DNA from: Colletotrichum lupini
Taxonomy: Eukaryota > Ascomycota > Sordariomycetes > Glomerellales > Glomerellaceae
Direction of reading: 5' to 3'
NCBI RefSeq assembly: GCF_023278565.1
Contig: NC_064676.1
Location: 3,038,001 to 3,102,000, forward strand
DNA length: 64,000 nt
In this document: positions 13,255 through 59,930 of the stretch, in pieces
Layout: each line of letters starts with the position of its first letter
How positions within the stretch are numbered: position 1 is the stretch's first letter
Notes under the pieces: model-generated
The model's database searches: none
The model's input: the letters and a program-made list of their open reading frames with translations, nothing else
Told to the model about the DNA's origin: nothing
Translations under genes and position numbers: made by a program

Positions 13255-14921
13255 ATGTCAGACGACGAGGCTCTTTCACCGCCGAAACGGTCTGGAACTA
13301 GCGACCCTGGCGCACACGATCTGGGTAAGCAACCCCCACCCCTTGTCAATGTCTCCCTTGATGATCGTGCAGCCGTTTTTGTCTAACAATCTGCAGCCAA
13401 CGCCTCCGACTCAGAAGACCACTTCTCCGATGCGCAATCCGCTCCCCTCAGCCCCGGAACGTCTCCGATTCCCAAAACCCGCGTAGAGAAAGTCGACGAT
13501 GAACCGTCGTACGGCGAGGTCCCCGGAACAGAGGCGTACCGCTCGAGGGAGGGTGATGCTGAGCCGGACGAGATTGCTATCCAGGAGAAGAACAGCAGCG
13601 AGGCGTCGTCGACGGCAGACAGTGCGCCCAAGTCGCCAGTCATTCCCAAGACTGTCGTCGAGGAGGCCCCGGGCGATTCAGGGCCGCACTCAGAGGAGTT
13701 TTTGGAGAAGCGCAAGGCAGATGCCCCAGCCGACTTGATTGTCAAGCCTGACGGCGAGACTGAAGAGGGTGGCAGTTCCGGTACGATGTAGAGATCCCTG
13801 AAATTCAAAGAGCATTTTGTCGTTGACCTGGCGTCATTCTTCGTAGATCCCCCCCCTGTATCACCTGCGCTATCAACACCAAGCTCGCCTCGTATAAAGC
13901 GGCAACCCTCCAAAACGGCACTCTCGTCTGCTCCGTCCAGCGCCGGCCTTGCGCCTCCTCCCGATGCAGCTGACAACGATGACGAGGAAGGAGAGGACGC
14001 TGAAGGCGGAGATGAGGATGATGATGACTTTGGTGACGATTTCGACGACTTTGAAGAGGGTGCTGAGGCCGACGGTGACTTTGACGACTTTGAAGATGGA
14101 TTCCAAGAACCCGAGTTCCAAGCTCCAGCTCCGGCTCCAGCGCCCAGCTTACCACAAGTACCAGCACTGCCTTTCGTAAGCACATTGCTATTCCAAGTTC
14201 GTTTGACTGTTCTAACACCTCAATCCAGGATATACCAGACTTTGACGGCTTGGACGGCGAAGACGTCCTACAAGCCGTCGACCCATACCTCAACACCCTC
14301 TTTCCCCCAGAGAGCCTAGACGTCAGCTCCCCGCCACCGTTAACGAAAGAAAACCCCATCTTCATTACACCACGTAGTGCGTCACTGTGGTCGCAGCTGG
14401 TGGCACCTCCGCCGCTGGCTCCCCCAGATTGGATCCGCTCGCGAATCCGCCGTCTCTTTCTCGTCTCCCTAGGCGTGCCGGTCGACCTGGACGAGATCCT
14501 CCCGGCCTCCAAGCAAAAGAAGCTCGTGCTGCCTTCATTACAAGTCCCCTCCGGCTCCCCGCGGACATCATCAGATTCTCGATCCGTATCACGGTTGCGG
14601 GCCGAGGCAAACGCGTCGTCGACGTCTGTCGACTCAAAAGGTAAACCGACGGCGTCATCCAAGAGGAAGGGACCGCCGCCAGTGCCGGACCTGGACCTCG
14701 TATCGGCCAAGCAGCTCTGCACGACGACGGACGAGGCCCTGAACGGCATGACGGACGACGAGCTTAAGGCGCACGTGGATAGGCTAAAGGCGATGGAGGA
14801 AACGGCCAAGGAGGCATTAGAGTACTGGACCAAGAAGACGGACGAAAAGATAGGCGACAGAGAGGCTTTTGAAGGCGTGATAGAAAACCTGGTCAAGCAT
14901 GCGCGCAAAGTCAGGAAATAG
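13255..14921 (+). CDS. Acidic coat-accessory-like protein (possible Laa2/DUF5102 family)
   Basis: Four exons: 13255-13324, 13397-13780, 13847-14175 and 14229-14921, 491 residues. The protein starts MSDDEALSPPKRSG. The N-terminal half is Ser/Pro/Glu-rich and predicted disordered. A central acidic stretch carries tandem Asp-Phe motifs (DDFGDDFDDFEEG and GDFDDFEDGF), the kind of peptide that binds the gamma-adaptin ear. The C-terminal ~220 residues look folded: a segment with SLWSQLVAPPPLAPPDWIRS and IRRLFLVSLGVPVDLDEIL, then a helical end (DELKAHVDRLKAMEETAKEA). From memory this layout resembles yeast Laa2, an AP-1 clathrin-adaptor accessory protein, but I could not check that. The assignment is tentative; the gene model is well supported by consistent phases. 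Confidence 0.7.
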
Positions 14922-22372: not shown

Positions 22373-23024
22373 GGACGACTAAAAAAAGACGAGCAAAAGT
22401 AGGGATGTTGGAAAGAAAGAAACGGTGTGATGATCATGAGGACGAGTGAAAGAACGTCAGAGCCTGCGTGTGTGCGTTCCAAAAAGGAACAACTTCTTTT
22501 TTATCCTTTTTTCTTTGTATTCAGCTGAGCTGGCTTTTTTTTTTTTTTTTTAACAACCACAAGACCCCCTACCACCCACTCACGCCTTTCTTCATCTCTC
22601 TCTTTTGACAGGATTCTACTTTTATATACCATTCTGGGCGTTGGGAAAGGAGGGAAATCTCAAAGAACAGGGTCAAAGACTTTGGACCTTTGTTGCAATT
22701 TTTGGGACAAGGGCGATATATTTACTTCGGTGGTTTATAGCAGTAATTTCAAACCCAAAACAAACTGTACAATTCGGAACCAGACTTGACTCTTTCCCTT
22801 GTCCTTCTATGTGACTGTTGTCTGTTCTTTCTTCGATCTCGCTCCGAGTCATTGGTGCAAGCCGCGGCGGACCCCCGGGCCCCATTTTACATACCAGGTC
22901 TTCCGTGCCCTCGGAGACCCTCATCCACCCCATCCACCACAAACCCCACGACAGAGATCCCACAAATCCAACCCGGTATGAACCACCTCGTCGCCATCCA
23001 CGATCACCAATCTTTAAACAGCCT
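22373..23024. other. Intergenic between membrane-protein gene and tRNA
   Basis: 652 bases with the 3' UTR of the membrane-protein gene and a T17 tract at 22535-22551. TTTAAA sits about 12 bases before the tRNA start. No open frame worth calling. Confidence 0.5.
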
Positions 23025-23160
23025 GCCCGGCTAGCTCAATCGGTAGAGCGTGAGACTCTTAATCTCAAGGTTGTGGGTTCGACCCGTAAGCGCCATTGCC
23101 TGTCCCAAAAGATCACAACATTCGAGTAGCACGACTAACACACACCAGCCACGTCGGGCT
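23025..23160 (+). tRNA. tRNA-Lys(CUU) interrupted in the T-stem by a 63-nt spliceosomal-type intron
   Basis: 5' exon 23025-23085 gives tRNA positions 1-61 and 3' exon 23149-23160 gives positions 62-73. Acceptor stem GCCCGGC pairs with GTCGGGC (one G-U), D-stem GCTC with GAGC, anticodon stem TGAGA with TCTCA around loop CTCTTAA (anticodon CTT, reads AAG), variable AGGTT, T-stem GTGGG with CCCAC, T-loop TTCGACC, discriminator T. The last strand CCCAC is formed only when C61 (23085) is joined to CCAC (23149 on). There is no ordinary intron at 37/38. The A box (TAGCTCAATCGG) and nearly all of the B box (GGTTCGACCC) lie in the 5' exon. The whole molecule matches the fungal tRNA-Lys(CUU) as I remember it, so this is a genuine gene and not a chance partial hit. 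Confidence 0.9.
23086..23148 (+). other. Putative GT-AG intron inside the tRNA-Lys gene
   Basis: 63 nt, beginning GTAAGC and ending CACCAG, with CTAAC at 23135-23139 whose branch A (23138) is 10 nt from the 3' end. These are the same signals and the same size as the protein-gene introns in this window (most are 50-100 nt). It contains no run of four T, so RNA polymerase III would not terminate in it. It splits position 61 from 62, far from the canonical 37/38 site cut by tRNA endonuclease. Whether it is removed by the spliceosome, by another route, or not at all cannot be told from DNA. Confidence 0.8.
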
Positions 23161-23189
23161 CAATTCCCGTCCGCGATTGACGCAACATA

Positions 23190-23205
23190 TTTTTTTCCTT
23201 TTTTT
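23190..23205 (+). terminator. Oligo-T terminator downstream of the tRNA gene
   Basis: T7 at 23190-23196 and another T7 at 23199-23205, starting 30 nt after the tRNA 3' end, with more T further on. This fits RNA polymerase III termination and leaves a 3' trailer of about 30 nt. Confidence 0.7.
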
Positions 23206-27482: not shown

Positions 27483-29485
27483 CTATACGATGTCGATGTT
27501 GAGGATCTTGATGTCCTCCTCTGGTCTCTCCTTATACGTCCGCGCGTTCTCGATCTTGTGGACAACGTCGAACCCTTGGGTTGCTCGCCCGAAAATGGTG
27601 TGCTTCCCGTCCAGCCAAGGCTGTTTGTGACTGTTAGGACTGCATTATATCTAAGTCACCGAGTTGGGTTGTACTCACCGTCTTTTCCGTTGTAATAAAG
27701 AACTGACTGCCATTGGTGTTTGGGCCTGCATTAGCCATGCTGACTGTGTATGGCTTGTCGTGCTTCAGACTGCTGAATTCATCTGCGAATTCCTTTCCCC
27801 ATATACTCTCGCCACCCGTGCCGTCGCCGAGTGGATCTCCACCTTGGATCATGAACTTGCGAATCACACGATGGAAGATCGTATTGTTGTAGTAACCACT
27901 CTTTGAGTGGGTGACAAAGTTCTCAACAGCCTTGGGTGCCGCATCGGGGAAGAGACGAATGTGAATGTCACCATAGTTGGTGTGGATTACTGCGGCGGTT
28001 CCGGTCTCTGCTTTCTTGGCCTCTTCTGCCTTCTTCTGGCCAAGCATTGTAGGCTTCTCGTTCTGAACGTCTCGCACTGACTTTGAGATTTCTTCGTCAT
28101 TGGTAAACAAGTAAAATCGCTGCTTGTTGACTCCTGTCGTTATCAAGATGGGGTCTCTGGACTCGGACTCCTGGAGCAGGGGATTGGCAGAAGCACCCAT
28201 CTCGACTGTAGTAATGCCCTTCTTCTGCGGTTGACCTTGGTATATCGCCAGGTTGACGGCTCTGAAGTTCTCTTCTTTACCGTACACCTTGACGATCTGG
28301 TTGGTATAGGTATTCAGCACTTTAACGCCGGATATTGAGCCGTAAAGAATAAAGTTGCCAGACTCGTCAAAAATGACGTTCGCCTTATCTCTGTACGCTG
28401 TCGAGTCAATTTCTCGCTCGACCGCGAACCTGCGGCCGAACTCCACAGTTTCGAGTTTTTGCAGTGCCAAACCAGCATGCTGCATATCCTCAATCACTTG
28501 AAGAGATTCGTCATATGTTCGATACAGCTTTCCAGACGCAAAGTCAAAGATTCGGATTTTCCTGTCTGGCTGAGAGAAGGCGGCAAATTGCTTGCCTGTC
28601 GGTGAAATCGTGATAGATGTCGGCACTGCTTTCGCCTTCTTGAAGTCGAATAAATTTGTTGAAGCCTTGAATTCGAATACATTGTCCGGTTTCTCGTAGT
28701 CGCCGCTTGGTCGCCAGTACTCCAGCATGCCCTTGTCGTCCGCAGACAGCACGCAGTCGTAGGCACTATTGAAAGCCATGATTGAGACCGGACTTCTGTG
28801 TAGAGACTTGATTGTGTGAATCGGGTCTTGCCTCTCTCCCCTGCCATCGAAAATGTGGATTTTGGAGTTGGTTTCCTCGGACACCGCAAGGAGAGGTAGC
28901 GAAGCCCCTCGGTTGTGAACCCAGCAAAGACATCTCGGCACAAAGGTCAACTTCAGCATCGCCAGAAGATCAAACGTGATGACATCGAAGATTTTAACAG
29001 TCTTGTCTGCCCCGGCGGTTGCAAAGCTTCTCCCGTCCTGGCTGACGGAGACGGACCTGATCTCGTCCGCATGTGCCTTGAACTCCTTGACGAACTCTAT
29101 CCCCTCAGCCACCTTTTTCCAGAATTTGACGACACCGTCGACAGATGAGGTAATAATGAAGTCCGTCAGAGGCGTCACTGTAACGAAAGACAGCTGCTCC
29201 TTGTGCATCAGAGACTTGGAGTACCGGGTTGACTTGGGCAGCGCAGCAATATAGAGCTTCTCGTGTGGAAGCACGCGACGCTTCTTCTTCTTTGGTGCTT
29301 CGGAGGGGAGCTGGGGACCCATATCGTCATCGGAGGAGCTGTCTAGCCACGCCGTTAGTCCAAGCTTTGTCGGAAAGAGTAGTGCTAGAACATAATTCTA
29401 GATCGCATCGTGTATGCTTACCGTCATCTTGGGCAACAAGGTCCGCATGACTTCGTTTGTTGGTTATGGCATCGTCGTCAGCCAT
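27483..29485 (-). CDS. WD40-repeat cyclophilin (PPWD1-type peptidyl-prolyl isomerase)
   Basis: Peptidyl-prolyl cis-trans isomerase fused to WD40 repeats, in animals a spliceosome-associated protein. Three exons: 29485-29422, 29342-27679 and 27620-27483, 621 residues. The start is [20 protein letters not shown] followed by an Asp/Ser run and a Lys/Arg patch ([15 protein letters not shown]). WD40 repeats fill residues ~70-400, for example [20 protein letters not shown] and [20 protein letters not shown]. The cyclophilin domain begins [20 protein letters not shown] and shows the catalytic [14 protein letters not shown] and [11 protein letters not shown]. The last exon supplies [20 protein letters not shown], needed to complete the fold; without splicing the protein would be truncated. 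The upstream first exon replaces a TTG-like internal start and is supported by the donor/acceptor pair and the acidic junction. Confidence 0.95.
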
Positions 29486-30218
29486 GTTGTCGATGCTGGA
29501 GGTCAAAGGCACAGCGACGGCGAGTGTGGTGACCGTGAGTGCAGGTGCTCGTCTTGTGGTAAGGCTGAGATGGAAATCTAGGAAGCTTGTGGTAGTTTGC
29601 AGGAAGCTATGTCAATTGATCCAATCAGATGAGGGTACCGGGGAAGTGGCAGCCAACGTACAGCAGCCTTGCTGCCGGCACTGGACCCACTGTGAGCTGC
29701 TTCTTAGTTTGGCTTTAGCGGCCGGCAACACATGCCGCGGGCTGCGATGGGGCATCCAGGATTCCAGGTTAGGGGGCCTCCGTGGATCTTTTGGTGACAC
29801 TGGAGGTGCGATCAGGTACGGGGCACCGCGCCGCCGGGATCCATCAGTGACCTCATGACGAAGCCTTCCGAAGGCACCGGACAGTTGCAACTTGCCGCGG
29901 TCCGTCAGCCTGACGATGCATCAGTTGGAACCCTGATTAGTCGGCAACGACTTTTTCTTCCAAAGGAAGATAAATAAATAACAAGTCACCCTTGTAGCGA
30001 ATCTCACCTTCATAAAGTTTTCGTCTCAAGGCATCAACGACATACGACGACCCAATCCCTCGGATTTCTCTCCCTCCCGTTCCTCAACAATTCCTTTCCT
30101 TTGGGCCCGTCTCGTTGCGGAAGTGCCATCTCATCCCTTCTTTTACATCAAACTACCTTACACCAGAACTACAACTGTGGGACAAGCAACATCATTGTCA
30201 ACATCGAGACAAACTAAG
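29486..30218. other. Divergent promoter region
   Basis: 733 bases between the PPWD1-like gene and the AIG1-like gene, which diverge. A frame open from 30123 runs into the AIG1-like gene, but the ATG at 30219 is preferred. No other feature recognised. Confidence 0.5.
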
Positions 30219-45739: not shown

Positions 45740-48700
45740 TCACTCCAGGTCTGCTCCGAGATACGGCGACACCAGCGGCATCCCGCTCTCAAGCAGGGCC
45801 TCAATATACGCAGTAATAAGCGGGTCCAGGCCCTGTCGAGAAGCACGGACAAGCCATTCTTGCATGTCAATCTCATCAAACGCACCGCCGTAGACGGTCT
45901 CCATGTGTGTGCGGAATTGCGAGAAGGGGGTCTTGATGCCGCCTGAGTGGTGGCGGAAGTGGATGGACGACGATGCTGATGGTGATGAATCTACCGCGGT
46001 AGGCTCATCAGTTGATGAAGAGGTACCCTGTAGAGCCGCCAACTCGACGGCGGCGGCTGCAATTTGTCCCACGACATCGTCGAGCGGCGCAAAGTCTAGG
46101 AATCCTTCTGCGCGCCGGAGGCGAGGTACGCAGCGCATGGCGAGGGAGTAGCGCAGGATGCCGTTCATTGCGTCCGAGTTGGGCGCTTGGGGGCTCACGA
46201 GGGTACAGGATCTGTGGATTGCGATCTTAAGGTTGAAGGGGTCGGGTCTTGGTGGTCCGAGTGCTCCAACCTCAGTGCCGTGATCACGCTCTTTGAGATG
46301 AATGACCAGATTCTCCAGGAATACTTCGCCTGCCCACTTACTCGCCGTGTATCCGTCCGAACCGTCGACGGCTGGCGGGGGGGAATCTCGGAGAGAAGAT
46401 GCGGCCCTGGGGGTTTCGGTTTTGCCTGCTAGGAGCAGGGTGCGCGGGCTCGAAAGGTAGAGAATTGGGATCCCTGTTTTGCGGGGTGAAGCTGATGCTA
46501 GGGAAAGGGAGGCGAGAGAGTGTAGAGACTCGAGGTTCGGGCGGCGGAGAGTGGCGAAGCGGTTCAGGCAATGGCCGTGGGCGGCTGCGTGGACGATGAT
46601 GTGTACGGTTTTGGAGAGGTGTTCTCGTTCGGTGGAGGTTAGGCCGAGGGTTTTGGAGAGGAGGGTGCCTGTGTAATAGACTACCTCGGCGACGGAGGAA
46701 GAGGTGGAAGAAAGGAGTTGCTGGTGATCGGAGGGAACGGCGATGCAGTGGACTTTGCGGACGGATGGGTGATTAAGGAGGGCTGTGAGGATGTGGCCTC
46801 CTGGGAAAGAAGATGCTCCTGTCAGGAGGACTTCGATGCCGGCCTCCATCTTGTCCTTCTCCACAGCGGCGGCGGATGCGGCCATCGCCCCAATTGTCTC
46901 AATTTCCTCCCTCAACCATCCCGGAACAGCCGTCTCAGTATTCCAGTCTATCCGAACATCTTCCTCCGCCGCCGCAGAATCCTCAAAGACGGCACGCGTC
47001 ATGGCGCGCAGCGTGGTAGCCTCGTACATCTGCTTCGTGCTGATTTCAACGCCCGTGGTCTCCTTGATTGCCTTTTGGAGCTTCATCAGCAGCAGCGAGT
47101 TACCGCCGCAGAGGAAGAAGTCGGATGACGGGGCGATACGCTTCTCGCCTAGGGAAGGGAGGACACGTTCCCAGAGGAGACGGAGCTCGCCTTGGCGAAC
47201 GGTAAGTTTTTCTCCTTCGTTTTGCTTAGGTGCGTCTGTGTTTATTGCGTTGGAGTCGGACTCGAGAGGGCTAGACCTCATTCTCTTAGGTAGATGGAGA
47301 CTGGCGATGGCCCTGCGGTCTAGTTTGCCGTTCGGTGTCGACGGCAGCGTCTTTAAGGTGTAGATTGCTGCGGGGATAAAGGCTTGCGGTAACCTCACAC
47401 GAGAGAGGATTGATGAAGAGGAAGAGATTTCGTTGTCTTGCCAGGTGGTGGGGTCCCCATCTTCGGCGAGCGTGGCATGAGCTACGAGGATATCATCTTC
47501 ACTAACACGCCCAGCATCAGCACCATCCAGGCGACGCCGAGATACCACGACAGACGCGAGAACACCCGCAGAAGCCTGGAGCACGGCGGTCTCAATCTCC
47601 TGCAGATCAACCCTCTGGCCGCGCAGCTTGATCTGCGTGTCGCCATCAAGTCGGCCTAGACAGAGGAGCGTCCCGTCGGAAAGGAGGCGGCCTTTATCGC
47701 CAGTGCGGTATACGGTGCTCTTGCCCATCCCCGGGACGTTTGTAAGGAAACGCGAGTGCGTGAGGTCTGGCCTGTCGAGGTATCCCAGCGCCACGCCGGC
47801 TCCGCTGATACAGATCTCGCCTGTTTGTCCTAGGGGTAGGGGCTGCGGGGTGGTGCTGGTGGTGATGGGGTCGACGATGATGACGGTATAATTCGGGAGG
47901 GTTTTGCCTACGGCAAAGGGTCTCCAGATGGCTGAGGGTGCGGAGGGGGATGCTATGCAGGAGGTTGACAACGGGTCGTTGCCGTTGTCGAGGGAGATAG
48001 GTTGAAAGGTTGCTGCTGCTGTGATCTCTGTTGGTCCGTAGCAATTCGTCAGTCGGAGACCTGGGATCCCGAGACGGCCGAGTTCAGTCAGCAGATGGGG
48101 TGGAATCTGTTCCCCGCCCGAGAAGGCCAACCTCCAGGCGGTCTTGTCATCGTCGTTGTCATGGGCTAAGACGTCGGCGGCGGCGTGGATCCAGGCGAGG
48201 TACTCGGTCGGCGTGGCGATGGTCATGGATATGGCCTCACGCTTCAAGAGCGCCGCTATGGCAACGGGATCGCGGCGGGAATCAGCGGGCGCAATGACCA
48301 GGCGGCCTCCGTTGGCGAGGGCGGAAAAGGTCTGGACGAGGGCCATATCGAAGCCCAGGGAGCTCTGTTGCAGGACGCAGTCGGTATGAGTCAGGGAGAA
48401 GGTTTGCGCTTTGAGGGCGATGTGGTTTGCGAAGTTGGGTTGAGTTAAGTGGACACCGTTAGGAGTGCCTGTTGAGCCGCTCGTGAAGAGGAGGAATGCC
48501 GGTGATATCTTGTCTGAGTCACCAAGGTCGCCATGAGCATTGAGGTTGTCTTGCATGTGGTCCACGTCTACTTTAAGGACTTGCATGTGCTGCTCTCCGA
48601 CAAAGTCATCTACCAAGGCGTTTACACGCTTGTCAGTCTGACTGTGGAAGAGCACGAGCGCGGGCTTGCAAAGCCGGAGCATGTCTGCGTGACGGGAGGC

Positions 48701-51700
48701 GGGCAGGCTGACGTCGAGGGGAACGTAGACGGCTCCAACTTCGAGGATAGCGAGCATGGTAACGATACCATCAATCGACGGCTCGCATAAGACGGCGACA
48801 TGGCGCGAGCGAACGCCGGCCTCCTTCAACCGATGTGCCAAGTGACTCGTCCGGTCGGCCAGTTGGGCATACGACACGCACTCAGCAGCGTCAGTGACGG
48901 CTATACGCTCGGGATGTAAGTGACAAATATCCCGCACACGACGAGACAAACACAGAGATGATCCGGCATCAACCCAATCAAACTTCATGTCGGGACCTCG
49001 GCCAACCTCGAGCGCGCGAAGCACACGCGGATCTGAATCATCGTACAAGCTCAACCGGTCCACAGCCGCCTCAGGATCACGAGCGACAGCCTCCAGCAAC
49101 CTCAGATACACATCCATCAGAGACCGGCACGCCTCGGGCCCATACAGCGTGGCAGAGCACCAGATCTGCGCGAGACACCCGCCCCCAGGCATCTCAAAGA
49201 ATCCTAGGCTCACGTCGTACGGGTTCTCGGCCTCTTTTGCGCCGTGCCAGGATAGTTCCATGCGGCTGTCGTCGGCGCCGAGGGGTAGGTCCCATATATT
49301 GATGCCGCCGCCCCCGGCTGTGCGGTAGTTGATGGCGGCTTGGAAGAGCGGATGGGCCTCTGTTGCGCGCGGGGCGGAGGCGAGGGATAAGATGCGGTCT
49401 AGGGGGGGCGTGCCGTGAGCGAAGACGGACATTGCTTTACGGGAGGCGGCGCGGGCTATAGAACTAAAGTCTGGACCAGAGGAAGTAGTTCCGGAAGAGG
49501 CTGTACCGGATGCTGCTATGGTGGCACGCAGGGGTAGCATATTGACGAAGCAGCCGAGCGTGTTGACGAAGCGCTCGTCGCGGCGGTTGGCGTCTACTAT
49601 GCCGATGCAGATGTCTTTGGTGCCAGTGAGGCGTGCGAGGAGGACTTGGAGGAGGGCGAGGTGGACGTGGAAGGGGCTGATGCGTAAACGCTGGCTCAAC
49701 GATTTCACGGCCTCGAGTTGTGCTGGGTCGAGCTCCTGATCCAGATTGTGAGCACTGCTCGGCTGCTGCTGCTGCTGTCTGACCAGAGACGACCTGTCAA
49801 GGCCGCGGGCCATGGGTAAAAGGGGAAGCGTATCGGGGAGTGAGGAGGCGAACTCGGCGCGCCAGAAGGCGAGGTCCTCGTCAAGGGGGCCTGTTTCTTC
49901 TTCACTGAGCTGGTGAAGCGAGTATTCGACGTACGAGAGGCCGCGATCGACAGGAGTGAGCGGTTGCATGCGGTATGCTCTGTCGACGTCTCGCCAGAAG
50001 AGAGCTACGCTCCAGCCGTCTAGGGTGATGTGGTGGTATCCCAGCACGAGATATCCGTACTCCTCTTCTTCATCATCCTTGAGACTCAGCAGTGAGACTT
50101 CCATTGTCACTCCGTGCTCAAGATCCCAAGCGCGCGTCTTCAAGCCCGCAAGCGTCTCTCGCAGCGCCGTGTCAATGCCGTCGCGGCCATCATACTCGGT
50201 GTGCGTGAGGCGGAGAATTAACTCAGACGGCGCCATGACGCCCTGCATTGGATGACCGTCTTCGAGGCGTGGGTAGTAGCAGGTGCGCAGACACTCGTGG
50301 TGAGCCGCGACGAGCCGGAGGGCGTGACGCAGCCGGGCGGCACTGATGCGGCGACGGCCCCGCAGCCGGTAGTAGAAGGCGTTATTGCAGGCGGCTGGAT
50401 TGTCCGAGTGCTTGTGGACGAACCAAAAGCGGGATTGGGCGGCGGACATGGGGGCTTCTCTGATGATGACAGGGTCGGGGCGGACGACGGAGTCCGTCCT
50501 CTTCGGCTGATCCTGGCGTTCTTCTTCTCCTTCCTCCTCATCATCTGTGATCGCCGTTTTGGGGCTGTCTGAGCCAGATCCAGAGTGTTCGACGATGCTG
50601 CTGCTGCTGCTGCTTTCCGTCGAGACCAAGCTTGAGTCAAGCGGGATAGGGGTAGCGACATCAGGGGCTAGAGCTGCTTTGGGAGTCTGCTTGACAAGCT
50701 CTTTCGGAGCCTGGGTGCCTTTCTCGCGCTCCTTGACCTCCTTCTTCTCATCCGTCTTGGGAGGAAGCTCCTTGCGATCAGCCAACATCTTCTTAGCTGC
50801 TTTCGCTGAAACCTCCAACACCGTCTCACCGCCCAAAATTTTGACAATCGGCACCTCGGTATCAAGCTCTTTGAGAAACCACGTACGAATCTCTACCGCC
50901 ACCAGCGAGTCGATGCCTAAGTCAACGATAGGCCTCTCGAGACCGTTGCTCTCGTGGACAGCGCCCTTGGAAAGCTGCAGCATCGTCTCGAGCTTGGCTC
51001 CGAACGCCGCAGCCACAGCCACCACGGCGTCATCCTCCGTCTCGGCGTGGGCCACTTGCTCGCGGACGCCAGCGCCGGCGCTGGAGCGGCTGTCGCCGTG
51101 TCGATTGTTTTGCTGCTGCTGAGAATCGGCTGATAGTGCGGTGTACGGCTTCAGGGCCATGAGCCGGGGATCTGACGTCCACACAGCCTTGTTAACCTGT
51201 CCGGCCTGCATCGGCGCGGTAGGCGGCGCAAGACCCATGGTAATGTCGTGCTCGAGACCCTCGCTAGTGCCGGAGGAGTCAACCCGACTTGTGCGCACAG
51301 CCATCGCAAACGCATCCTGCACATCCGTCTCGGATAACGGTGTAAGTCGAATACTCCGGAAGTGATCGGCCAGCTGCTTCTCCTTTTCAAAGCGCGTAAT
51401 GTATCCCGTGTCCGCCACCCACCCGATATGCACCACAGACGCAGCCAAACCCCTGGCACGGCGGCCCGCGACGACGGCGTCCATGAAGATGTTACCGGCG
51501 TGGTAATTCGCCTGGGCAACGTTGCCGATGGTGCTCGCCGCCGACGACGTGACGATGAAGAAGTCTAGCTGTTCGGCACCCTCGTTGAAAACGGCATCGA
51601 GGTTCTCTGTTCCTACGACCTTGGCTGCTAGCGTCTCATTGAGCTGTCGTGGGGACATGTCCAGGAAGACGGCATCGTGGAGGACCATGGAGAGATTACA

Positions 51701-54700
51701 TACTCCCGCAATGGGCGGCATCGTCGCACGGATGGTGGCGACTGCTGTCTCGACTTCCGCGCGCTGCGTAACGTCCACGGCGAGGGTGTGGACTGTCGCT
51801 CCCGCTCGGCCGGCCTCGGCTTGGAGATCTACGTTTGTCTGGGCGCGACGGGATGTGATTACGATGTTGCAGGCGCCGTGGCGGATCATCCAGCGGGTGA
51901 GAGAGAGGCCCAGGCCGCCGGAGCCGCCCATGATCAGGTAAGTTCGGTTTGGAAGGAGGAGCCCGTTCGGATGGATGTCAATCTCGGGGGGTTGTATTGT
52001 CAAGGAAAGTGATGGTTGTTGGTTCCAAGAGCAGAGGTATCGTTCGCGGGAGAGGGTGCTCGCGTTCATGCCGGCCAGGTCGGCGGCCATGATCATCTTT
52101 GTTGACTTGTGATAGCTTTCGTCTGTGGAGTCGGTAGCAACATCTACAGACTTGAGCAAGGCCTCGATGGTCTGGCTCTGACTATCGGCCTTGATCGCAG
52201 ACTGCTGCGGTAAGAAGCCCCGCAGAAGTCCGCCGTCGAACGTGAATTTTTGGCAATTGGGCAGCAGAGATGCCTTCAAGTGCTCCCGAGCTTGATTGGT
52301 AGCTTTCTCCGACGTCTCCAAGCAGTCTACGAAGAAGTCGATTCTGTGTGACGGCAGACAATGCTTGGCCATACGTCTCGACATGTTCGCGTGGACACGA
52401 ATCCAGCCTGCAGGAGTCTTCTCAACATCAGGATTGGAGGTGACGCAGTAGACCTTAACGTTGACATCCTGGAGCTCTGTCTTGAGCTCTGCCTCGAGAT
52501 TACCAACCATGTCACGTTGCGGTTCGAAGAGCAGTACTTTGACAGTTGCACCGGCGTTGAATGCTCTTCCTGCCATGTGGTGAATAAGAGCACGACGAAG
52601 CAGCGCGTCAGCCGTGGCTCTGATGGACGCTGGCGTGTAACACGAGCTGCTGACCCGGACTACATCCCAGGGCTGTAGGGTCAGCTTCGACGCATTGGTA
52701 GAGCTAAGTGTCATCGCCCACTCGCCATCTACGCGCCCGTGGACGATGTAAACCGAAGACCCATCCTTATGAGATGGAACATGCAGCGCATAGTCGACGT
52801 CCATGCGCAAAGCTCCCTGGCCGTGGTCAACAAACCGCCGTAACTCCATCTTTCCATTCACACTTGCAACAGCCTGGACCGCAACGTCAGTTACTTCAAC
52901 CATCTTGACAACGGGCCGATTGCGCGCGGCAAAACGGTCGTTGAGTGCCGTGGCAGGCATCACGCGCGGAATGCGAATTTCGCCGTTAACCAGAACCTCG
53001 CACTCGGGCTCTATAGACCACAGCGGGAGCGGAGTCCGCCCTTCAGTGTCCCGGATGTCAGCCATGTGTCTCAGTCGCAGGTGTGCTTCGACACAGCGCC
53101 GGGCATCTGCCGCGGATCCGGCGCCGTCTTCGAGCCCGAGAACTTGCACGCTGAGATGGGGGACTTCCTTGGGCATCACGCGCGTGATGCCGCGGATCAT
53201 ACTCGCGCGAAGAGGAGCAGAAGTGCCTGCAGCCGTCACCCACAGCAAGCATGAGGCGGAGAGAAAAAGATGCTGGAGACGGCGCAGACGCGGTTCCGAC
53301 ATGGGCAGGGTCGCGAATAGGGGCTCATCGGCGTCATGCAGGCACAAGACGTCAGCTCGGTTGAGGCTGACGTCGTCGAGATCAATGTCGTCGATGCTGG
53401 GAATAGCGCGCAAGCGAGAACGCCACCCCTTCGGCAGCAACCGAGTGATCTCGTCGATGACGCGGGTAGTGGCAAGTCGCTTTCCCCCGATAAGCAGCAG
53501 CGGAGAAGACGGCGGTGTAGGCAGATCTGCTGGCGTGACAGAGTCGAGCGGGCTACGGAGGCGAAGAACATCCCCATCAACGGCCTGGCTCACGATACAC
53601 GACGTGACGTGCCGGCTCTCGTCGGGACTATCATGCAGCACCGTATCGGCGCCCGAGAACCCGGCGCGGCAGAGTAGGCGGTGCCACTCGAGCGTCGGCA
53701 CGGTGGGACCGTACCGGCGGGACGGCTCCGTGCTCTGCCACCAACCCGGTAACCCGCCGAAGAGGAAGCCGACCATACTCTGCGTACCCGTGGTCTCGAG
53801 GAGGACGAGGTATCCGCCCGGCCGGAGTAAGCTGCGTGCGCGGGCGAGTGTGTCTGCGAGGCTTCTCGTGGCGTGGAGGACATTGGCCGCGATGACGACG
53901 TCGTAGCTGTGCGGCGCGAATCCCTGCGCAGCGATGTCCTGCTCTATATCGAGTGTGCGGTACGCCACGCGGTCAAAGGCAGCGAACTTCTCTGCGGCAG
54001 CGGCGAAGAATGCGGGCGAGACGTCGGTGAAGGTGTACGAGTCGTAGAGGTCATCGACGGCGTGTAAGACGCTCCAGGTTGTCCCACCAGTGCCAGCGCC
54101 GATCTCGAGCATGTTGCAGCGCGGGAATTTGAAGGCGATTTGCTTCATGAGCTGGCCAACGGCGCGATTGGTTGCCACCGAGGTGTTGTTGCGCATGTAG
54201 AACTGGTTGAGGAGGTCGTCTTGCTGCATTACTTGGAGCAGGAGATGGGAATCGCCTTGCACGACGCGGGCGAGCGCGCCGCCTACGGCGTGCATGAGAC
54301 GGAATTCGACTGTGTCGCCGTGTTCGCGGTCTAGTGTAGCGATTTCCTCGGGTCCGTCTGTTAGCCATGCGGCTTGGACAAGCGGGTGTTTGCCCTGGTG
54401 GACTAGGTCGAGGTGGTGGGCAAAGGCCTCGAGCATGCGTCGATGGTGCCAATGCAGGCTGTCTGTCTCATTCTCTCCCTCCGCCTTGTTGGAAGAAGAC
54501 GATGGTGGCACCTTGACTTGAGCTACAACTTGCCGGATATACCATAGAGTGAGTCGCTCCGTTGCCTCGTTGACCTGCAGCGTTCTTTCATCTTGAATGG
54601 GATCGCGCGGTAGAAGCGTAAGCCCCATAACCGAGACATCATGACCATGAGTCGTCCGGCAAAAGATATGTCGGTCCTGCGAGGCATCTAGCCCTCCAGC

Positions 54701-57700
54701 CGCCCGCGTGCGTAAGCCCTCGACCTGCGCAAAGGCCCGCACCGAAGCTTCGCCGTCGACGTACAAGCTGACATCGCCATCGAGTGTAGCACCCGTGAAA
54801 TCGGTTACCCAGGCGTCCATGTGGCACGTAGTCGAAGATGTCATTGCGTTCGTGGTCGTGACGGACACGTTGGGGTCGATGAGCACGCGATCGATGTGCG
54901 ACGGCAGCATCGCTCTCTTGAGCAACAGGCTCGCGGGGTGTGCGTGTGCGACGAACAAGGCTTGGAAAGCCACGTCCAAAATGACTGGATGTAGCACGTA
55001 GGAGCCGCTGCTTGGTCCCAGTGACGCAGCATCGGCATAGGTGTCGACGCTGGCATCGGCTGACCAGACTGCCGTGGCGGCCGCGTAGCCGAGGGCGCGC
55101 TCACAGCTCTTCATGGCCGCAAATCCGTCGTGGTAATCAAGGCCGATCTGGCCCAACATCTCGTGGATGGCTTCGCCGTCGACATGAACGGCGTTATCCG
55201 GAATCGGCTCCCGGCCTGGTAACACCGGACCCGATGCCAAAGTGGGGCCGATGCCGAAGTCGGCGGGGCCGAGAAGGATGACTAAGTTACCACTACAGGT
55301 GAGCATCATGGCGCCCGTCACCTCGTTCGGACACACGTAGTACGCAAACTTGGCACGCACAACCTGGGCAGCCTTGTTGTTCGGACTGTAGTCATCAGCC
55401 GCCGCCGGTAGCACCTGCACGGTAAATATCGTTTCGACTCCGTCCGTGTTATCAGGCACAACCACTGGCCGCAAAATGTCAACGTCCTCCACGGCCAGCA
55501 GAGCCACGGGCCGAGAACCGGCGATGTATTGCGCCGCCTGGGCTGCGATGGAGACGTACGCGGCGCCGGGCAACAGAACCTCGCGAAGCACCTCGTGCCC
55601 CTTCAACCAAGGGATCTCACGCAGACGCAGGACATTGCGCCACCGCAGCTCGTGATCGTTGTCATCGGGCATCCGTCGGCCCAAGAGCTCGTGTGCCGTG
55701 TCAGCGAGGGTACGGTACCGCGCCGAGATGCGCGACTCACGCCAGTATACCCGGTCGTGATCCCACGCGTAGCCGGGCAGATCCGCGAGTAATGACTTGG
55801 GTGTCATGATAGACGTATTACTCTCACTCCATATGCCCCGGAAACCATCAAAATCGACATGCGCCGGTCCAAGCAGGGACCAGACGGACCCGATGGCCTC
55901 TTGCACGACAGCTACATCGCTTGCTTTGCGCTTGAGGAGACTAGCATACGGCGGCGCGGCACCATAAGCCGCCTTGAGCGTCTGCTCGACGGGGCCCTTG
56001 AGAGCCGGATGTGGCCCCAGTTCGATGGCCAGGTCAAATGGTCCGCCGTGCCACACGGCCGACTCGAGCGCCTGTGAGAACTTAACCATCTGTACCATGT
56101 TGGCAACCCAATATGGACCCTTGAGCGCAGCAAGAAGCTCCGCCTCGCCGCCCCGTCGAACAAGGCGAGCGTCGCCTCGGACGCTGGAACTCCATACGCA
56201 CGCCCCTCGCCCTCTTCCTTTCCCTGGCTTAACGGAAATGTCGCAAGCTAGGAGGGCCTGCAGATAAGCATCGGCACATGCAGTCATGTGATGCGAGTGA
56301 TACGCCGTGTCGACCAGCAGCGGACGGGCAAAGATGTTGTCCCGCTCCAGCTGCTCCTTGGCCTCGGCCACGGCCTCTCGGTCTCCAGAGAGCGTGCAGC
56401 TTTGCGGTGCGTTGCTGGCGGCTACCACCAGGCGATCAACGAATGCCGGTTGGCGGCACAGCTCCGAGGCCGCTGAGAGCGAGAGGCCGACCGCCAGCAT
56501 GCCGCCGCCAACCTTTGTGCCAGCGCGGGCTAGGTGAGCGTAAAAGCCGCGGTAGTAGGCGATTTGCATAGCGGCCTTGCGCGAGATGAGACCGGCGGCG
56601 TAGGTCGCTGCGATCTCACCTGAGGAGTGGCCTACAACGGCGTCGAGACAGATTCCTGACGCAGTCAAGATGTCAACTTGGGCGATTTGCAACGCTGTAC
56701 AGAGCGGTTGCGCCAGCTCGGCCTCGCCTAGGCGCGATATGTCCGCATCCTTGCAAAGCTCCTCAATGAGAGACCAAGTCGGCGCGTGCCCGTGGCCCTG
56801 GGGCAAGCCCTGTTGTAGGACGGCTTCACATGCCTCGAGGCTGCGTCGGAAGACCGGAGATGCTGCCATGAGCCCGCGACCCATGGTGGCCCACTGCGCG
56901 CCTTGGCCTGTGAAGACGCCGAGAATGCCGGGAGCTTCGGCCGGGTTGATGAGGCGCGGGACGGAGCCGATGTCACCGCTCTTGGCCTTGCCGGCGTGAC
57001 TGGCCACGAACCGAGCCATGGCATTCAGGATGTCTTGCCTGGTCGCGCCTGTGAAGAATGTCCGCACGCGGTGTACTGACCGATGTGTCTGCAGGATGCA
57101 ACTCAGGTCTCTGAGGTCTAGCGAGTCCACGTGCGTCTCGGCGTAGTCCAAATACGCCTGTACGTTGCGTAATAATGCCGGCCCAGACTGCGCGGAGAAG
57201 AGGAGAGGACCGATAGTCCCATCTGAGAGCTGTTGTTTCTGTCCTTGGCCCTCTGCTACTTCTGGCAAAGCTTCAATGATGGCATGGGCATTAGTGCCTC
57301 CGAACCCGAAGCTGTTCACTGAGGCACGCATCGGAGTGCCCGCAGGCCTCGCCGGCCATGTCATGGCCTTGGTGGCGATCTCAAGCGCTCCAGGACCGTA
57401 GTACGGGGCGATCTTAGGGTTGAGCTGGTTGAAGAGCATGTTGGGCGGCACAGTCTGGTGCTTGAGCATGAGCAGCACCTTGATCACGCCCGCCAGGCCG
57501 GCACAGCCCTCCGTGTGACCGATGATGGTCTTGATACTTCCCACAATCAAAGTCTCCGGCTTGATTATCTCGGACTGCTCCGGTTGATGGTCCTGGCTAT
57601 CTTGACCCTGACCTCGGAAAAAGACATCATACACTGCGCGGGCTTCAACCGGATCACCAGCCTGCGTACCCGTGCCGTGACACTCAAAGTACTGCGGCCG

Positions 57701-58636
57701 ATCCGCCTCACGGAGCGGATCAAGCCCCGCACGGCGATACGTCCGCCGGATCAAATCCGTCTGGGCCGGCGCAAACGGCATCGTGATCCCGGGACTCTGG
57801 CCATCCGAGTTGACTCCTGTCGCACGAATGACACCCTGGACGGGGTCGCCATCGGCCAACGCTTTTGCAAGCGGCTTCAGCAACAGCGCGGCTACGCCCT
57901 CGCCGCGGCCGTAGCCGTTGGCGTCCACATCCCACATGCGGCACTGCGAGTCCGGCGAGAGCATCTGTAGCTTCGACTCGGCGATATACGGCCCGGGATC
58001 CATGATGAGATTCGTACCGCCCACGATGGCGGCGTCGCAGTCGCCCGCGCGTAACCCCTGCACTGCCTGGTGCAGCGCAACGAGCGAGCTCGAGCATGCC
58101 GTGTCAATGGTCACGGAGGGCCCCTTGAGGTCCAGCACGTACGAGACGCGATTGGCGATGATGCTAGGCGCGTGGGCACCCGTCGCGTTGTACTTGGGCA
58201 TCGTCTCTGGGTCGCGCGCCTGGATGACGCCGTAGTCGTTGCTCATCGACCCGACGTGGACCGAGGTCTGGGACCCACGGAGGCGGTCGAGCGTGACGCC
58301 CGCGCTCTCGCACGCTTCGTAAGATACCTCGAGGAGCAATCGCTGCTGCGGGTCCATGCCGGAGGCTACCACGGGGCTGATACCGAAGAAGCCCGCGTCA
58401 AAGACGCGGGTGTCTTCCCCTAGGAGATAAGACAGGCCCCGGACGTCTGTAGACCCGTGTGTCTGTCCGTCGGTGTTGTGAAAACGTTCTAGGTTCAGAC
58501 GCTTTGGGTCGAACTGTTTCCGTACGTCACGGGGCTCGCGGAGGAGCTCCCATAGCTTTGAGGGCGAGCTACAGCCGCCGGGGAAGCGGCAGGCTGAGCC
58601 GATGATGGCAATTGGCTCTTCTGGTAATGAGGCCAT
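45740..58636 (-). CDS. Hybrid polyketide synthase - nonribosomal peptide synthetase (PKS-NRPS)
   Basis: One uninterrupted frame of 4298 residues that makes a reduced, methylated polyketide fused to an amino acid. Domains by residue: KS 1-440 (Cys181 in DTACSSS, His320 in ECHGTGT, His374 in GHTEGCAG); AT ~570-880 (GHSSG, Ser671); DH ~980-1290 (His1014, Asp1221); C-methyltransferase ~1450-1620 (LEIGAGTGG); degenerate ER-like region ~1880-2200 without a nucleotide motif; KR ~2230-2430 (GGSGGLG, Tyr2378); ACP (GIDSL, Ser2577); C ~2727-3160 (HHITLDG 2868-2874); A ~3240-3790 (LLFTSGSTGTPNG, NCYGPTE, NGKLDRR); T (CGGNSL, Ser3847); reductase ~3930-4298 (TGASSFPGGHIL, Tyr4096 and Lys4100 of YTASK). 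The intact Tyr-Lys pair favours reductive aldehyde release over Dieckmann cyclisation, in which that Tyr is often lost. The DH has Arg where the HxxxGxxxxP motif has Gly. The amino acid loaded is not predicted. Confidence 0.95.
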   Translation of the reverse strand: MASLPEEPIAIIGSACRFPGGCSSPSKLWELLREPRDVRKQFDPKRLNLERFHNTDGQTHGSTDVRGLSYLLGEDTRVFDAGFFGISPVVASGMDPQQRLLLEVSYEACESAGVTLDRLRGSQTSVHVGSMSNDYGVIQARDPETMPKYNATGAHAPSIIANRVSYVLDLKGPSVTIDTACSSSLVALHQAVQGLRAGDCDAAIVGGTNLIMDPGPYIAESKLQMLSPDSQCRMWDVDANGYGRGEGVAALLLKPLAKALADGDPVQGVIRATGVNSDGQSPGITMPFAPAQTDLIRRTYRRAGLDPLREADRPQYFECHGTGTQAGDPVEARAVYDVFFRGQGQDSQDHQPEQSEIIKPETLIVGSIKTIIGHTEGCAGLAGVIKVLLMLKHQTVPPNMLFNQLNPKIAPYYGPGALEIATKAMTWPARPAGTPMRASVNSFGFGGTNAHAIIEALPEVAEGQGQKQQLSDGTIGPLLFSAQSGPALLRNVQAYLDYAETHVDSLDLRDLSCILQTHRSVHRVRTFFTGATRQDILNAMARFVASHAGKAKSGDIGSVPRLINPAEAPGILGVFTGQGAQWATMGRGLMAASPVFRRSLEACEAVLQQGLPQGHGHAPTWSLIEELCKDADISRLGEAELAQPLCTALQIAQVDILTASGICLDAVVGHSSGEIAATYAAGLISRKAAMQIAYYRGFYAHLARAGTKVGGGMLAVGLSLSAASELCRQPAFVDRLVVAASNAPQSCTLSGDREAVAEAKEQLERDNIFARPLLVDTAYHSHHMTACADAYLQALLACDISVKPGKGRGRGACVWSSSVRGDARLVRRGGEAELLAALKGPYWVANMVQMVKFSQALESAVWHGGPFDLAIELGPHPALKGPVEQTLKAAYGAAPPYASLLKRKASDVAVVQEAIGSVWSLLGPAHVDFDGFRGIWSESNTSIMTPKSLLADLPGYAWDHDRVYWRESRISARYRTLADTAHELLGRRMPDDNDHELRWRNVLRLREIPWLKGHEVLREVLLPGAAYVSIAAQAAQYIAGSRPVALLAVEDVDILRPVVVPDNTDGVETIFTVQVLPAAADDYSPNNKAAQVVRAKFAYYVCPNEVTGAMMLTCSGNLVILLGPADFGIGPTLASGPVLPGREPIPDNAVHVDGEAIHEMLGQIGLDYHDGFAAMKSCERALGYAAATAVWSADASVDTYADAASLGPSSGSYVLHPVILDVAFQALFVAHAHPASLLLKRAMLPSHIDRVLIDPNVSVTTTNAMTSSTTCHMDAWVTDFTGATLDGDVSLYVDGEASVRAFAQVEGLRTRAAGGLDASQDRHIFCRTTHGHDVSVMGLTLLPRDPIQDERTLQVNEATERLTLWYIRQVVAQVKVPPSSSSNKAEGENETDSLHWHHRRMLEAFAHHLDLVHQGKHPLVQAAWLTDGPEEIATLDREHGDTVEFRLMHAVGGALARVVQGDSHLLLQVMQQDDLLNQFYMRNNTSVATNRAVGQLMKQIAFKFPRCNMLEIGAGTGGTTWSVLHAVDDLYDSYTFTDVSPAFFAAAAEKFAAFDRVAYRTLDIEQDIAAQGFAPHSYDVVIAANVLHATRSLADTLARARSLLRPGGYLVLLETTGTQSMVGFLFGGLPGWWQSTEPSRRYGPTVPTLEWHRLLCRAGFSGADTVLHDSPDESRHVTSCIVSQAVDGDVLRLRSPLDSVTPADLPTPPSSPLLLIGGKRLATTRVIDEITRLLPKGWRSRLRAIPSIDDIDLDDVSLNRADVLCLHDADEPLFATLPMSEPRLRRLQHLFLSASCLLWVTAAGTSAPLRASMIRGITRVMPKEVPHLSVQVLGLEDGAGSAADARRCVEAHLRLRHMADIRDTEGRTPLPLWSIEPECEVLVNGEIRIPRVMPATALNDRFAARNRPVVKMVEVTDVAVQAVASVNGKMELRRFVDHGQGALRMDVDYALHVPSHKDGSSVYIVHGRVDGEWAMTLSSTNASKLTLQPWDVVRVSSSCYTPASIRATADALLRRALIHHMAGRAFNAGATVKVLLFEPQRDMVGNLEAELKTELQDVNVKVYCVTSNPDVEKTPAGWIRVHANMSRRMAKHCLPSHRIDFFVDCLETSEKATNQAREHLKASLLPNCQKFTFDGGLLRGFLPQQSAIKADSQSQTIEALLKSVDVATDSTDESYHKSTKMIMAADLAGMNASTLSRERYLCSWNQQPSLSLTIQPPEIDIHPNGLLLPNRTYLIMGGSGGLGLSLTRWMIRHGACNIVITSRRAQTNVDLQAEAGRAGATVHTLAVDVTQRAEVETAVATIRATMPPIAGVCNLSMVLHDAVFLDMSPRQLNETLAAKVVGTENLDAVFNEGAEQLDFFIVTSSAASTIGNVAQANYHAGNIFMDAVVAGRRARGLAASVVHIGWVADTGYITRFEKEKQLADHFRSIRLTPLSETDVQDAFAMAVRTSRVDSSGTSEGLEHDITMGLAPPTAPMQAGQVNKAVWTSDPRLMALKPYTALSADSQQQQNNRHGDSRSSAGAGVREQVAHAETEDDAVVAVAAAFGAKLETMLQLSKGAVHESNGLERPIVDLGIDSLVAVEIRTWFLKELDTEVPIVKILGGETVLEVSAKAAKKMLADRKELPPKTDEKKEVKEREKGTQAPKELVKQTPKAALAPDVATPIPLDSSLVSTESSSSSSIVEHSGSGSDSPKTAITDDEEEGEEERQDQPKRTDSVVRPDPVIIREAPMSAAQSRFWFVHKHSDNPAACNNAFYYRLRGRRRISAARLRHALRLVAAHHECLRTCYYPRLEDGHPMQGVMAPSELILRLTHTEYDGRDGIDTALRETLAGLKTRAWDLEHGVTMEVSLLSLKDDEEEEYGYLVLGYHHITLDGWSVALFWRDVDRAYRMQPLTPVDRGLSYVEYSLHQLSEEETGPLDEDLAFWRAEFASSLPDTLPLLPMARGLDRSSLVRQQQQQPSSAHNLDQELDPAQLEAVKSLSQRLRISPFHVHLALLQVLLARLTGTKDICIGIVDANRRDERFVNTLGCFVNMLPLRATIAASGTASSGTTSSGPDFSSIARAASRKAMSVFAHGTPPLDRILSLASAPRATEAHPLFQAAINYRTAGGGGINIWDLPLGADDSRMELSWHGAKEAENPYDVSLGFFEMPGGGCLAQIWCSATLYGPEACRSLMDVYLRLLEAVARDPEAAVDRLSLYDDSDPRVLRALEVGRGPDMKFDWVDAGSSLCLSRRVRDICHLHPERIAVTDAAECVSYAQLADRTSHLAHRLKEAGVRSRHVAVLCEPSIDGIVTMLAILEVGAVYVPLDVSLPASRHADMLRLCKPALVLFHSQTDKRVNALVDDFVGEQHMQVLKVDVDHMQDNLNAHGDLGDSDKISPAFLLFTSGSTGTPNGVHLTQPNFANHIALKAQTFSLTHTDCVLQQSSLGFDMALVQTFSALANGGRLVIAPADSRRDPVAIAALLKREAISMTIATPTEYLAWIHAAADVLAHDNDDDKTAWRLAFSGGEQIPPHLLTELGRLGIPGLRLTNCYGPTEITAAATFQPISLDNGNDPLSTSCIASPSAPSAIWRPFAVGKTLPNYTVIIVDPITTSTTPQPLPLGQTGEICISGAGVALGYLDRPDLTHSRFLTNVPGMGKSTVYRTGDKGRLLSDGTLLCLGRLDGDTQIKLRGQRVDLQEIETAVLQASAGVLASVVVSRRRLDGADAGRVSEDDILVAHATLAEDGDPTTWQDNEISSSSSILSRVRLPQAFIPAAIYTLKTLPSTPNGKLDRRAIASLHLPKRMRSSPLESDSNAINTDAPKQNEGEKLTVRQGELRLLWERVLPSLGEKRIAPSSDFFLCGGNSLLLMKLQKAIKETTGVEISTKQMYEATTLRAMTRAVFEDSAAAEEDVRIDWNTETAVPGWLREEIETIGAMAASAAAVEKDKMEAGIEVLLTGASSFPGGHILTALLNHPSVRKVHCIAVPSDHQQLLSSTSSSVAEVVYYTGTLLSKTLGLTSTEREHLSKTVHIIVHAAAHGHCLNRFATLRRPNLESLHSLASLSLASASPRKTGIPILYLSSPRTLLLAGKTETPRAASSLRDSPPPAVDGSDGYTASKWAGEVFLENLVIHLKERDHGTEVGALGPPRPDPFNLKIAIHRSCTLVSPQAPNSDAMNGILRYSLAMRCVPRLRRAEGFLDFAPLDDVVGQIAAAAVELAALQGTSSSTDEPTAVDSSPSASSSIHFRHHSGGIKTPFSQFRTHMETVYGGAFDEIDMQEWLVRASRQGLDPLITAYIEALLESGMPLVSPYLGADLE

Positions 58637-59930
58637 TATGTTAGACTAGTGTATATGGTCTTTGTTCTGCTGTGCGGTTAACACCTGTGGCCACATATAC
58701 TAGGTTCATGGAACAGGTGAGTGGACGTACAATTTTGACTTTGAGATTGACTGTATTTCTAAGAGAGACGGGCCTCGTGGTGTAGTTGATACAACATGAA
58801 ACGAGAGGTCAAAGGTGAGGGCAATCAGGAATGCATTAGCCTAGAACACTCCGTCTGGGCGCCAACAATGGTAGATGGTAAGTTGTTGCTGCCGTACCGA
58901 AGGTGTCTTGATGACCGCTCTGGACGGCCATTGAGAATGGCGCTTTATGCAGACAAGAAGCATCTGATGAACTCCTACTCGACTAGACTCGCTAGTTATG
59001 GCGAGAGGGACCATTCGATGCGTCCCGCTGTAGGAAGTTCGTCTCCGGACCAGGGGCTTTCAACAAACCGAAAGCATATCTCGTACCCATGCCGTTCTTG
59101 ACTTGCCGTGCGGGTTGGGTCCGAACTTTGAAGCCAAAATGTCACTATACAAGAGTATACTAGACCGCTTCTCCCGATGCTGGCATTGCTGCCATGCGTC
59201 GTGGAACTTCTGCTCGTTTGCGATACTTACATCCTGGGCTCCATGGATGTCGGTCTGTCTCAAACTCAATAGCAAATGTCACCGTGTCGAACCAGACCGC
59301 TCATTGACTTGCTCCTTTGGGCCCGGTTACAGGGTGTTCATTTCTTCATATCGCATTTCAACACGGATGTATCAGAAACTCGGAAGCGTGATGCTTGGCT
59401 GAGGGTCAATATGGTACATATCTTCACTGTCAAGAGCACTTACACGAGTAGCAGAAGATGATTGGGGTCTAACAATACAGCGAGCTCATACTGAGTTACA
59501 ATCTGATACTACCGTGGAGACATCGACATGGATACAGAACAACACTCCATGGGTGATTGGTATATGCCTCATTATCTAAAACTCTGTCAGTTGTGCATCT
59601 TTGTCTCCTCCGAGCGAGGCCTTGACGTTGAGAGAATCTTGCGCCACGACTCATCCTGGACACCGAACGAATTCAATTGAGATACTTGAGGACTATCCGA
59701 CCATGGTTGTCAAGCAGGAATCAATACGGTTGCAGAAGTTGTGCCGGATCTTGCCATAATCACATAATTTCTCGTCGGTTCGCTCATGGCTGGGTGGGTA
59801 TATTTTACCAGCCTCTACGTGTAATTTAGAGCATCTTCTTCTTCCAACTTACATCCAAGAGCCTTTCGGATGACCTTCAAACGTACTCGTCCCTTCGATA
59901 TTCATTGTACCCCCTGTCACTTGGACGAAC
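58637..59930. promoter_or_regulatory. Divergent promoter of the PKS-NRPS and P450 genes
   Basis: 1.3 kb between the two divergent start codons. It would allow co-regulation of the synthase and the oxidase. It contains CTACTCGACT at 58975-58984, the reverse complement of a 10-mer also present upstream of the enoyl reductase gene (63873-63882). A TATATTTT stretch lies near 59800, about 130 bases before the P450 start. No regulator gene is inside the region. Confidence 0.6.

Follow-up and report, generated by a model that had tools for sequence, protein, structure and literature searches.

A tRNA-Lys(CUU) gene with an insert in its T-stem

At positions 23025–23160 of the window (the whole 64-kb stretch of DNA that was analysed), the plus strand carries a tRNA-Lys(CUU) gene whose T-stem is broken by a 63-nt insert with the signals of an mRNA-type intron. 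The features of the locus are as follows:

23025–23085, plus strand: exon 1 of tRNA-Lys(CUU), 61 nt, tRNA nt 1–61 (coordinates exact)
23032–23043, plus strand: A box of the Pol III internal promoter, TAGCTCAATCGG, found by sequence reading
23058–23060, plus strand: anticodon CTT (ARAGORN calls the intron-free form tRNA-Lys(ctt))
23076–23085, plus strand: B box, GGTTCGACCC, found by sequence reading; positions 1–10 of its 11-position consensus lie in exon 1
23086–23148, plus strand: mRNA-type intron, 63 nt, GTAAGC...CAG, between tRNA nt 61 and 62
23086–23091, plus strand: 5′ splice site GTAAGC (GTAAG[CT] in all ten copies described below)
23135–23139, plus strand: branch-site pentamer CTAAC, whose branch A (23138) lies 10 nt from the end of the insert
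23146–23148, plus strand: 3′ splice site CAG ([CT]AG in all ten copies)
23149–23160, plus strand: tRNA part of exon 2, 12 nt, tRNA nt 62–73, comprising the 3′ strands of the T and acceptor stems, with U as nt 73
23161–23180, plus strand: 20-nt trailer CAATTCCCGTC[AC]GCGATTGA, conserved in all ten intron-containing copies
23190–23196, plus strand: run of seven T, presumed Pol III terminator

The junction has a single possible register, because the first base of exon 2 is C and that of the intron G, and the last bases of exon 1 and the intron are likewise C and G. Once the insert is removed, the sequence folds into a cloverleaf with all four stems paired (folded without nt 73) and ARAGORN names it tRNA-Lys(ctt). 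With the insert in place, ARAGORN found no tRNA, whether the window or the single gene was scanned and even when introns of up to 100 nt were allowed, and the Rfam tRNA model returned a reduced match (46.1 bits over 23029–23095) relative to intron-free tRNA-Lys copies (65.7 bits). This comparison of spliced and unspliced forms had been called for in an initial annotation of the window, which claimed that the DNA without 23086–23148 is a good four-stemmed tRNA-Lys(CUU), and that the insert begins with GTAAGC, holds CTAAC with its branch A at 23138 and ends with CAG; the tRNA call and fold bear out the former, and the exact coordinates agree with the latter. The insert is confirmed as real rather than a chance resemblance.

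Ten interrupted and ten uninterrupted genes

We searched the host assembly (63.4 Mb, 12 contigs) with window positions 23000–23200 as the query. The search returned 20 places, the same 20 that contain the exact anticodon arm TGAGACTCTTAATCTCA; this count of tRNA-Lys(CUU) genes consists of exact matches, and copies with an altered anticodon arm would escape it. Half of the genes (class 1, L009–L018, with the window copy as L009) carry GCCCGGC as the 5′ strand of the acceptor stem, are interrupted at position 61/62 in every copy, and are spread over six contigs (C1, C3, C5, C6, C8 and C9). The other ten (class 2, L019–L028) have the acceptor 5′ strand GCCTTGC and no insert. The initial annotation had described one split copy; that copy stands, but the phenomenon is larger than described, and the insert position and GT-AG ends that it proposed to compare among other tRNA-Lys(CTT) genes are kept in all ten.

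ARAGORN called none of the ten class 1 genes with the insert and all ten without it, each as Lys(ctt), and called the three intron-free copies on which it was tried. No match to an uninterrupted class 1 tRNA was found anywhere in the assembly with up to one mismatch allowed across the junction, whereas the equivalent search for class 2 recovered all ten of its genes; the assembly thus yielded no source of this tRNA other than spliced class 1 exons.

Conservation in class 1 follows the mature molecule and its immediate trailer. The last 53 nt of exon 1 are exact in all ten copies and the first 8 nt are identical by reading; over the 73 exon positions mean identity is 0.997 (99.7%), nine copies being identical and L012 carrying one substitution, in the tRNA part of exon 2, that leaves a T-stem mismatch at 51:63. 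The 20 nt after the tRNA retain a mean pairwise identity of 0.982, and ungapped identity is 0.31–0.32 in the 30 nt before the gene and in the stretch 29–78 nt after the tRNA (0.316). Between the classes (L009 versus L020), 6 of 73 positions differ, and these make up exactly three base pairs: 4:69 (C-G versus U-A), 5:68 (G-C versus U-G) and 50:64 (U-A versus C-G). In class 1 the two partners of every covarying pair lie in different exons; selection has therefore acted on the tRNA fold across the intron.

Two mundane origins were ruled out. An assembly artefact is incompatible with ten loci carrying different inserts, and a tRNA-derived SINE with similarity confined to exons and trailer and with only ten copies. 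A search of the genome with the Rfam tRNA model scored 63 of 2262 first-look candidates, with 49 matches listed, so the list of tRNA genes is incomplete and further split tRNAs are possible. An ungapped pattern for T-arm introns in other tRNAs, covering position 61/62 only, gave 12 places: the ten junctions already described, and L099 and L102, neither of which is a split tRNA by eye; a reversed control pattern gave five places, so this search has a chance background. Two patterns each, run against prokaryotic genome contigs and viral contigs, gave no matches, as expected for a fungal gene. One 92-nt tRNA match (L065, G000:C9:1420109-1420200) has, by eye, a conventional intron beside the anticodon, which suggests that ordinary tRNA introns coexist with those in the T-arm.

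Conserved splice signals in diverged inserts

The ten inserts are 53–69 nt long and differ in their bodies, and all ten share the three hallmarks of a U2-type intron: a 5′ site GTAAG[CT], which conforms to GTRAGY, the 5′ splice site consensus matching U1; CT[AG]AC near the 3′ end, with the branch A 10 nt from the end in nine copies and 11 nt in one; and a terminal [CT]AG. CTRAC occurs nowhere else in the ten introns. None of 50,000 mononucleotide-shuffled inserts combined all three signals, which turned up singly 16, 869 and 1443 times. When both strands of the 64-kb window were searched with a strict signature (5′ site, CTRAC at the very distance seen in the insert, YAG, length 48–74 nt), it was found at two places, the tRNA-Lys insert and 13325–13396.

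Between the first 6 and last 16 nt, the insert bodies have a mean gapped identity of 0.719, against 0.710 for shuffles. Their summed alignment score (−64) nevertheless exceeded that of all 200 mononucleotide-shuffled sets (mean −198, s.d. 22.6), a trace of similarity that suggests common descent rather than ten independent events.

The insert length is typical of the host as judged from two introns of one nearby protein gene, a cyp15 homologue at 27486–29605. Counted from the sequence, one of these introns is 79 nt long (GTAAGC...CTAAC...TAG) and the other 58 nt (GTGAGT...CTAAC...CAG), in line with the earlier remark that the insert is sized like the protein-gene introns around it; the splice signals of the two introns also agree with those of the inserts. 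The cyp15 homologue itself is 100% identical to a Colletotrichum filicis protein over 95% of the query, and the other named Colletotrichum entries listed reach at most 93%; as the entries matched are 90%-identity clusters, they establish the genus of the host but not its species.

Pol III elements and flanking sequence

By sequence reading, the split genes have the A box and B box of a Pol III gene, and the insert begins directly after the ten B box positions of exon 1. A run of at least five T starts 27–35 nt after the tRNA in nine of the ten; L018, the copy that lacks it, shows not even a stretch of four T within 138 nt after its tRNA. Shortly downstream of the trailer, the 3′ flank of L018 contains a dispersed repeat, TTGTTGGTATCCCTATTA...GGTTCGAACCGT, which is also present at L102 and matched 14 further places in the genome; it may have displaced the terminator of this copy.

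Upstream, between −32 and −7, the motif CAAYMA is present in seven of the ten split genes, four of the ten intron-free tRNA-Lys genes and four of the seven initiator-Met genes (the last named by eye); the corresponding background tiles had it in 4 of 96, 2 of 98 and 2 of 70 cases. Of four motifs tried this one was the strongest, and it was picked after looking. TTTT is absent from the ten introns, but we rejected this as evidence for Pol III: 1488 of 2000 dinucleotide-shuffled intron sets, and 356 of 2000 mononucleotide-shuffled ones, lacked it as well.

U6 introns in the same genome and other precedents

Two U6 snRNA matches were obtained from 47 scored of 3763 first-look candidates, L089 (G000:C3:2600236-2600405) and L090 (G000:C1:6529188-6529350). 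Both contain an intron of the form GTAAG[TC]...CACT[AG]AC...CAG, so the fungal U6 introns that had been invoked as a precedent are found in this very genome. The two U6 introns also contain GTTCGA, a B-box-like stretch; the fission yeast U6 intron likewise holds its B box. The U6 exons are alike and the U6 introns diverged, the same pattern as in the tRNA-Lys genes. A survey of U6 introns has reportedly been made by Canzler and others.

Like fungal U6, the split tRNA-Lys genes combine a short GT-AG intron and a CTRAC branch site with a small structured Pol III RNA; unlike U6, they encode a tRNA, their insert disrupts one of its stems, and the B box lies in exon 1 rather than in the intron. With canonical tRNA introns at 37/38 they share a place within a nuclear tRNA gene and the need for removal before use, but they differ in position (61/62), in having GT, branch and AG signals, and in that the mature fold required by the endonuclease is broken. 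Spliceosomal introns are known from fungal U6, and PMC5832005 (2017) states that, among small structured RNAs, none but U3 and U6 had until then been known to carry an intron often. Fungal U3 snoRNA genes resemble the present case in placing canonical splice signals in a structured non-coding RNA, but there the introns lie almost exclusively on the 5′ side, in the first stem-loop (PMC5832005), whereas the tRNA-Lys insert lies near the 3′ end. Ectopic or multiple tRNA introns at unusual positions occur in archaea and in some eukaryotes, among them the red alga Cyanidioschyzon and the Guillardia nucleomorph; passages of PMC4033280 and PMC3978253 describe these through bulge-helix-bulge motifs and the endonuclease, without GT-AG or branch signals. 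Among the matches listed from the open-licence PMC literature, outside which most subscription journals lie, none concerned a tRNA spliced by the spliceosome, judged by title and start of abstract.

Probable removal of the insert by the spliceosome

The split genes are very probably functional nuclear tRNA-Lys(CUU) genes whose Pol III transcripts are spliced by the major (U2-type) spliceosome, as the initial annotation had ventured from one copy; the signals of the ten copies, their conserved exons and the failure to find an uninterrupted version all favour this reading. It draws on comparison within one genome, in which splicing is deduced from selection: exons are 0.997 identical while insert bodies are nearly unalignable and flanks fall to 0.31–0.32, so selection acts on the joined exons. 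A joined-exon product is the simplest explanation for the retention of exons, splice signals and little else in the insert. In intron-free form, all ten copies yield a cloverleaf with the anticodon CUU, L012 with its one T-stem mismatch. From these patterns we infer Pol III transcription, the spliceosome as the remover and use of the product in translation, and the class 1 tRNA is probably obtainable only if the spliceosome removes the insert. Two copies that look imperfect, L012 (51:63 mismatch) and L018 (no T run), count against this reading, as do the likely common descent of the ten copies and the shortness of the tRNA part of exon 2, just 12 nt, although the trailer would prolong it in the precursor.

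Mechanistically, Pol III would transcribe the split genes from the usual internal A and B boxes, with what appears to be an ordinary short U2-type intron sitting directly after the B box. The spliceosome would then remove the intron as in U6, with U1 pairing to GTAAGY and U2 to CTRAC, and join the exons. Until then the T-stem could not pair, and the enzymes of processing and modification could not recognise a cloverleaf.

The insert could instead be an ectopic intron taken out by the tRNA splicing endonuclease and a ligase, its likeness to GT, branch and AG signals being incidental, but we consider this very unlikely. The eukaryotic tRNA endonuclease measures from the mature fold, and the insert breaks that fold. 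Such a route would leave unexplained why CTRAC is kept 10–11 nt from the end in all ten copies. In the exact-junction register, the one tested (intron nt 2–5 against exon 2 nt 2–5), the central helix of a bulge-helix-bulge would form two of four pairs in nine copies (TAAG versus CACG) and one of four in L012 (TAAG versus GACG). What speaks for the endonuclease is the existence of ectopic tRNA introns in Cyanidioschyzon and the Guillardia nucleomorph (PMC4033280 and PMC3978253); as many of the Guillardia introns form no defined motif according to PMC3978253, the missing motif alone is not decisive.

The alternative named in the initial annotation, that an old insertion killed a tRNA-Lys gene which was later copied while the GCCTTGC class does all the work, gains from the ten intact Lys(CUU) genes, which could by themselves supply this tRNA, and from the defects in two of ten split copies (L012 and L018). 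Pseudogene exons, however, should drift like the inserts, yet they are 0.997 identical beside bodies that can hardly be aligned; splice signals are kept in all ten copies; and whole-gene conversion would have homogenised the inserts also. Kept signals and exons, diverged bodies, the failure to find an uninterrupted version and the introns in U6 together render dead genes highly improbable. It is scarcely credible, finally, that the loci, spliced or not, make a functional tRNA-derived non-coding RNA or serve as TFIIIC landmarks. In favour, a landmark would require just the A and B boxes, and a non-tRNA product might account for a 20-nt trailer nearly as conserved as the exons and able to pair with the 3′ acceptor strand. 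Against this, conservation spans the anticodon arm, both acceptor strands and exon 2; a landmark would have no need of splice signals; three compensated pairs make up the differences from the intron-free class; and that class has a similar trailer, which is thus not special to split genes.

Textbook nuclear tRNA splicing uses a dedicated endonuclease and ligase. If the spliceosomal reading is right, tRNA genes that require the spliceosome would link two RNA-processing pathways regarded as distinct, and the spliceosome would be able to process even a short Pol III transcript that depends on it to complete its fold. ARAGORN misses all ten split genes, which suggests that tRNA genes with a split T-arm have been overlooked in fungal genomes.

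A conserved trailer and a candidate alternative hairpin

The 20-nt trailer motif was found nowhere in the genome outside the ten split copies with up to one mismatch allowed. Aligning trailer positions 6–11 with tRNA positions 66–71 gave a standard pair in 110 of 120 cells, against at most 86 of 120 at 15 other offsets, and the difference between the classes is compensated at two of these pairs (tRNA positions 68 and 69); all ten class 1 copies have one U-U mismatch. This suggests that the trailer and the 3′ acceptor strand may form an alternative hairpin in the precursor. Predicted pair probabilities for the ten unspliced precursors were inconsistent, ranging from 0.00 to 1.00 between the 5′ and 3′ acceptor strands and from 0.00 to 0.59 between the 3′ acceptor strand and the trailer, and consensus folds with the trailer attached kept the cloverleaf, both for the ten joined class 1 sequences and for all 20 (the latter in an alignment that also contained 40 nt of leader). 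The idea of a switch thus rests on covariation, not energy. For the four class 2 precursors folded (L019–L022), the trailer pairing was predicted to be preferred, at 0.91–0.99. Class 2 also has a conserved trailer, which is therefore not a device made for the intron; that it assists splicing is speculation.

Taken together, half of the tRNA-Lys(CUU) genes might depend on the spliceosome and also have a trailer that pairs with the 3′ acceptor strand and holds the precursor in an alternative fold until it is spliced, ordering splicing before end processing. We put this combined model forward as a tentative and rather doubtful one; if it were true, the supply of a major translation adaptor would be tied to pre-mRNA splicing capacity.

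Further features of the flanks were seen by eye. The class 2 trailer has CCTCAC (CCTCGC in L019), complementary to the 3′ acceptor strand GTGAGG, and a small hairpin whose TGGC/GCCA stem varies to TGAC/GTCA, except in L019 and L027; in nine of ten copies the class 2 leader ends in ACCC, which continues into the tRNA as ACCCGC, a complement of GCGGGT in the T-arm. These flanks of tRNA-Lys(CUU) are conserved and possibly structured. Four tRNA-Asn genes (L063, L066, L067 and L068, named by eye) share a trailer of roughly CAGTGGTT...TCC, a stretch that resembles a second T-arm hairpin, and seven initiator-Met genes (L042–L048, also named by eye) show no such trailer conservation.

Elsewhere in the window, the minus strand at 45740–58645 holds a 4301-codon open frame for a PKS-NRPS hybrid with ketosynthase, acyltransferase, dehydratase, methyltransferase, ketoreductase, condensation, AMP-binding and reductase-like domains.
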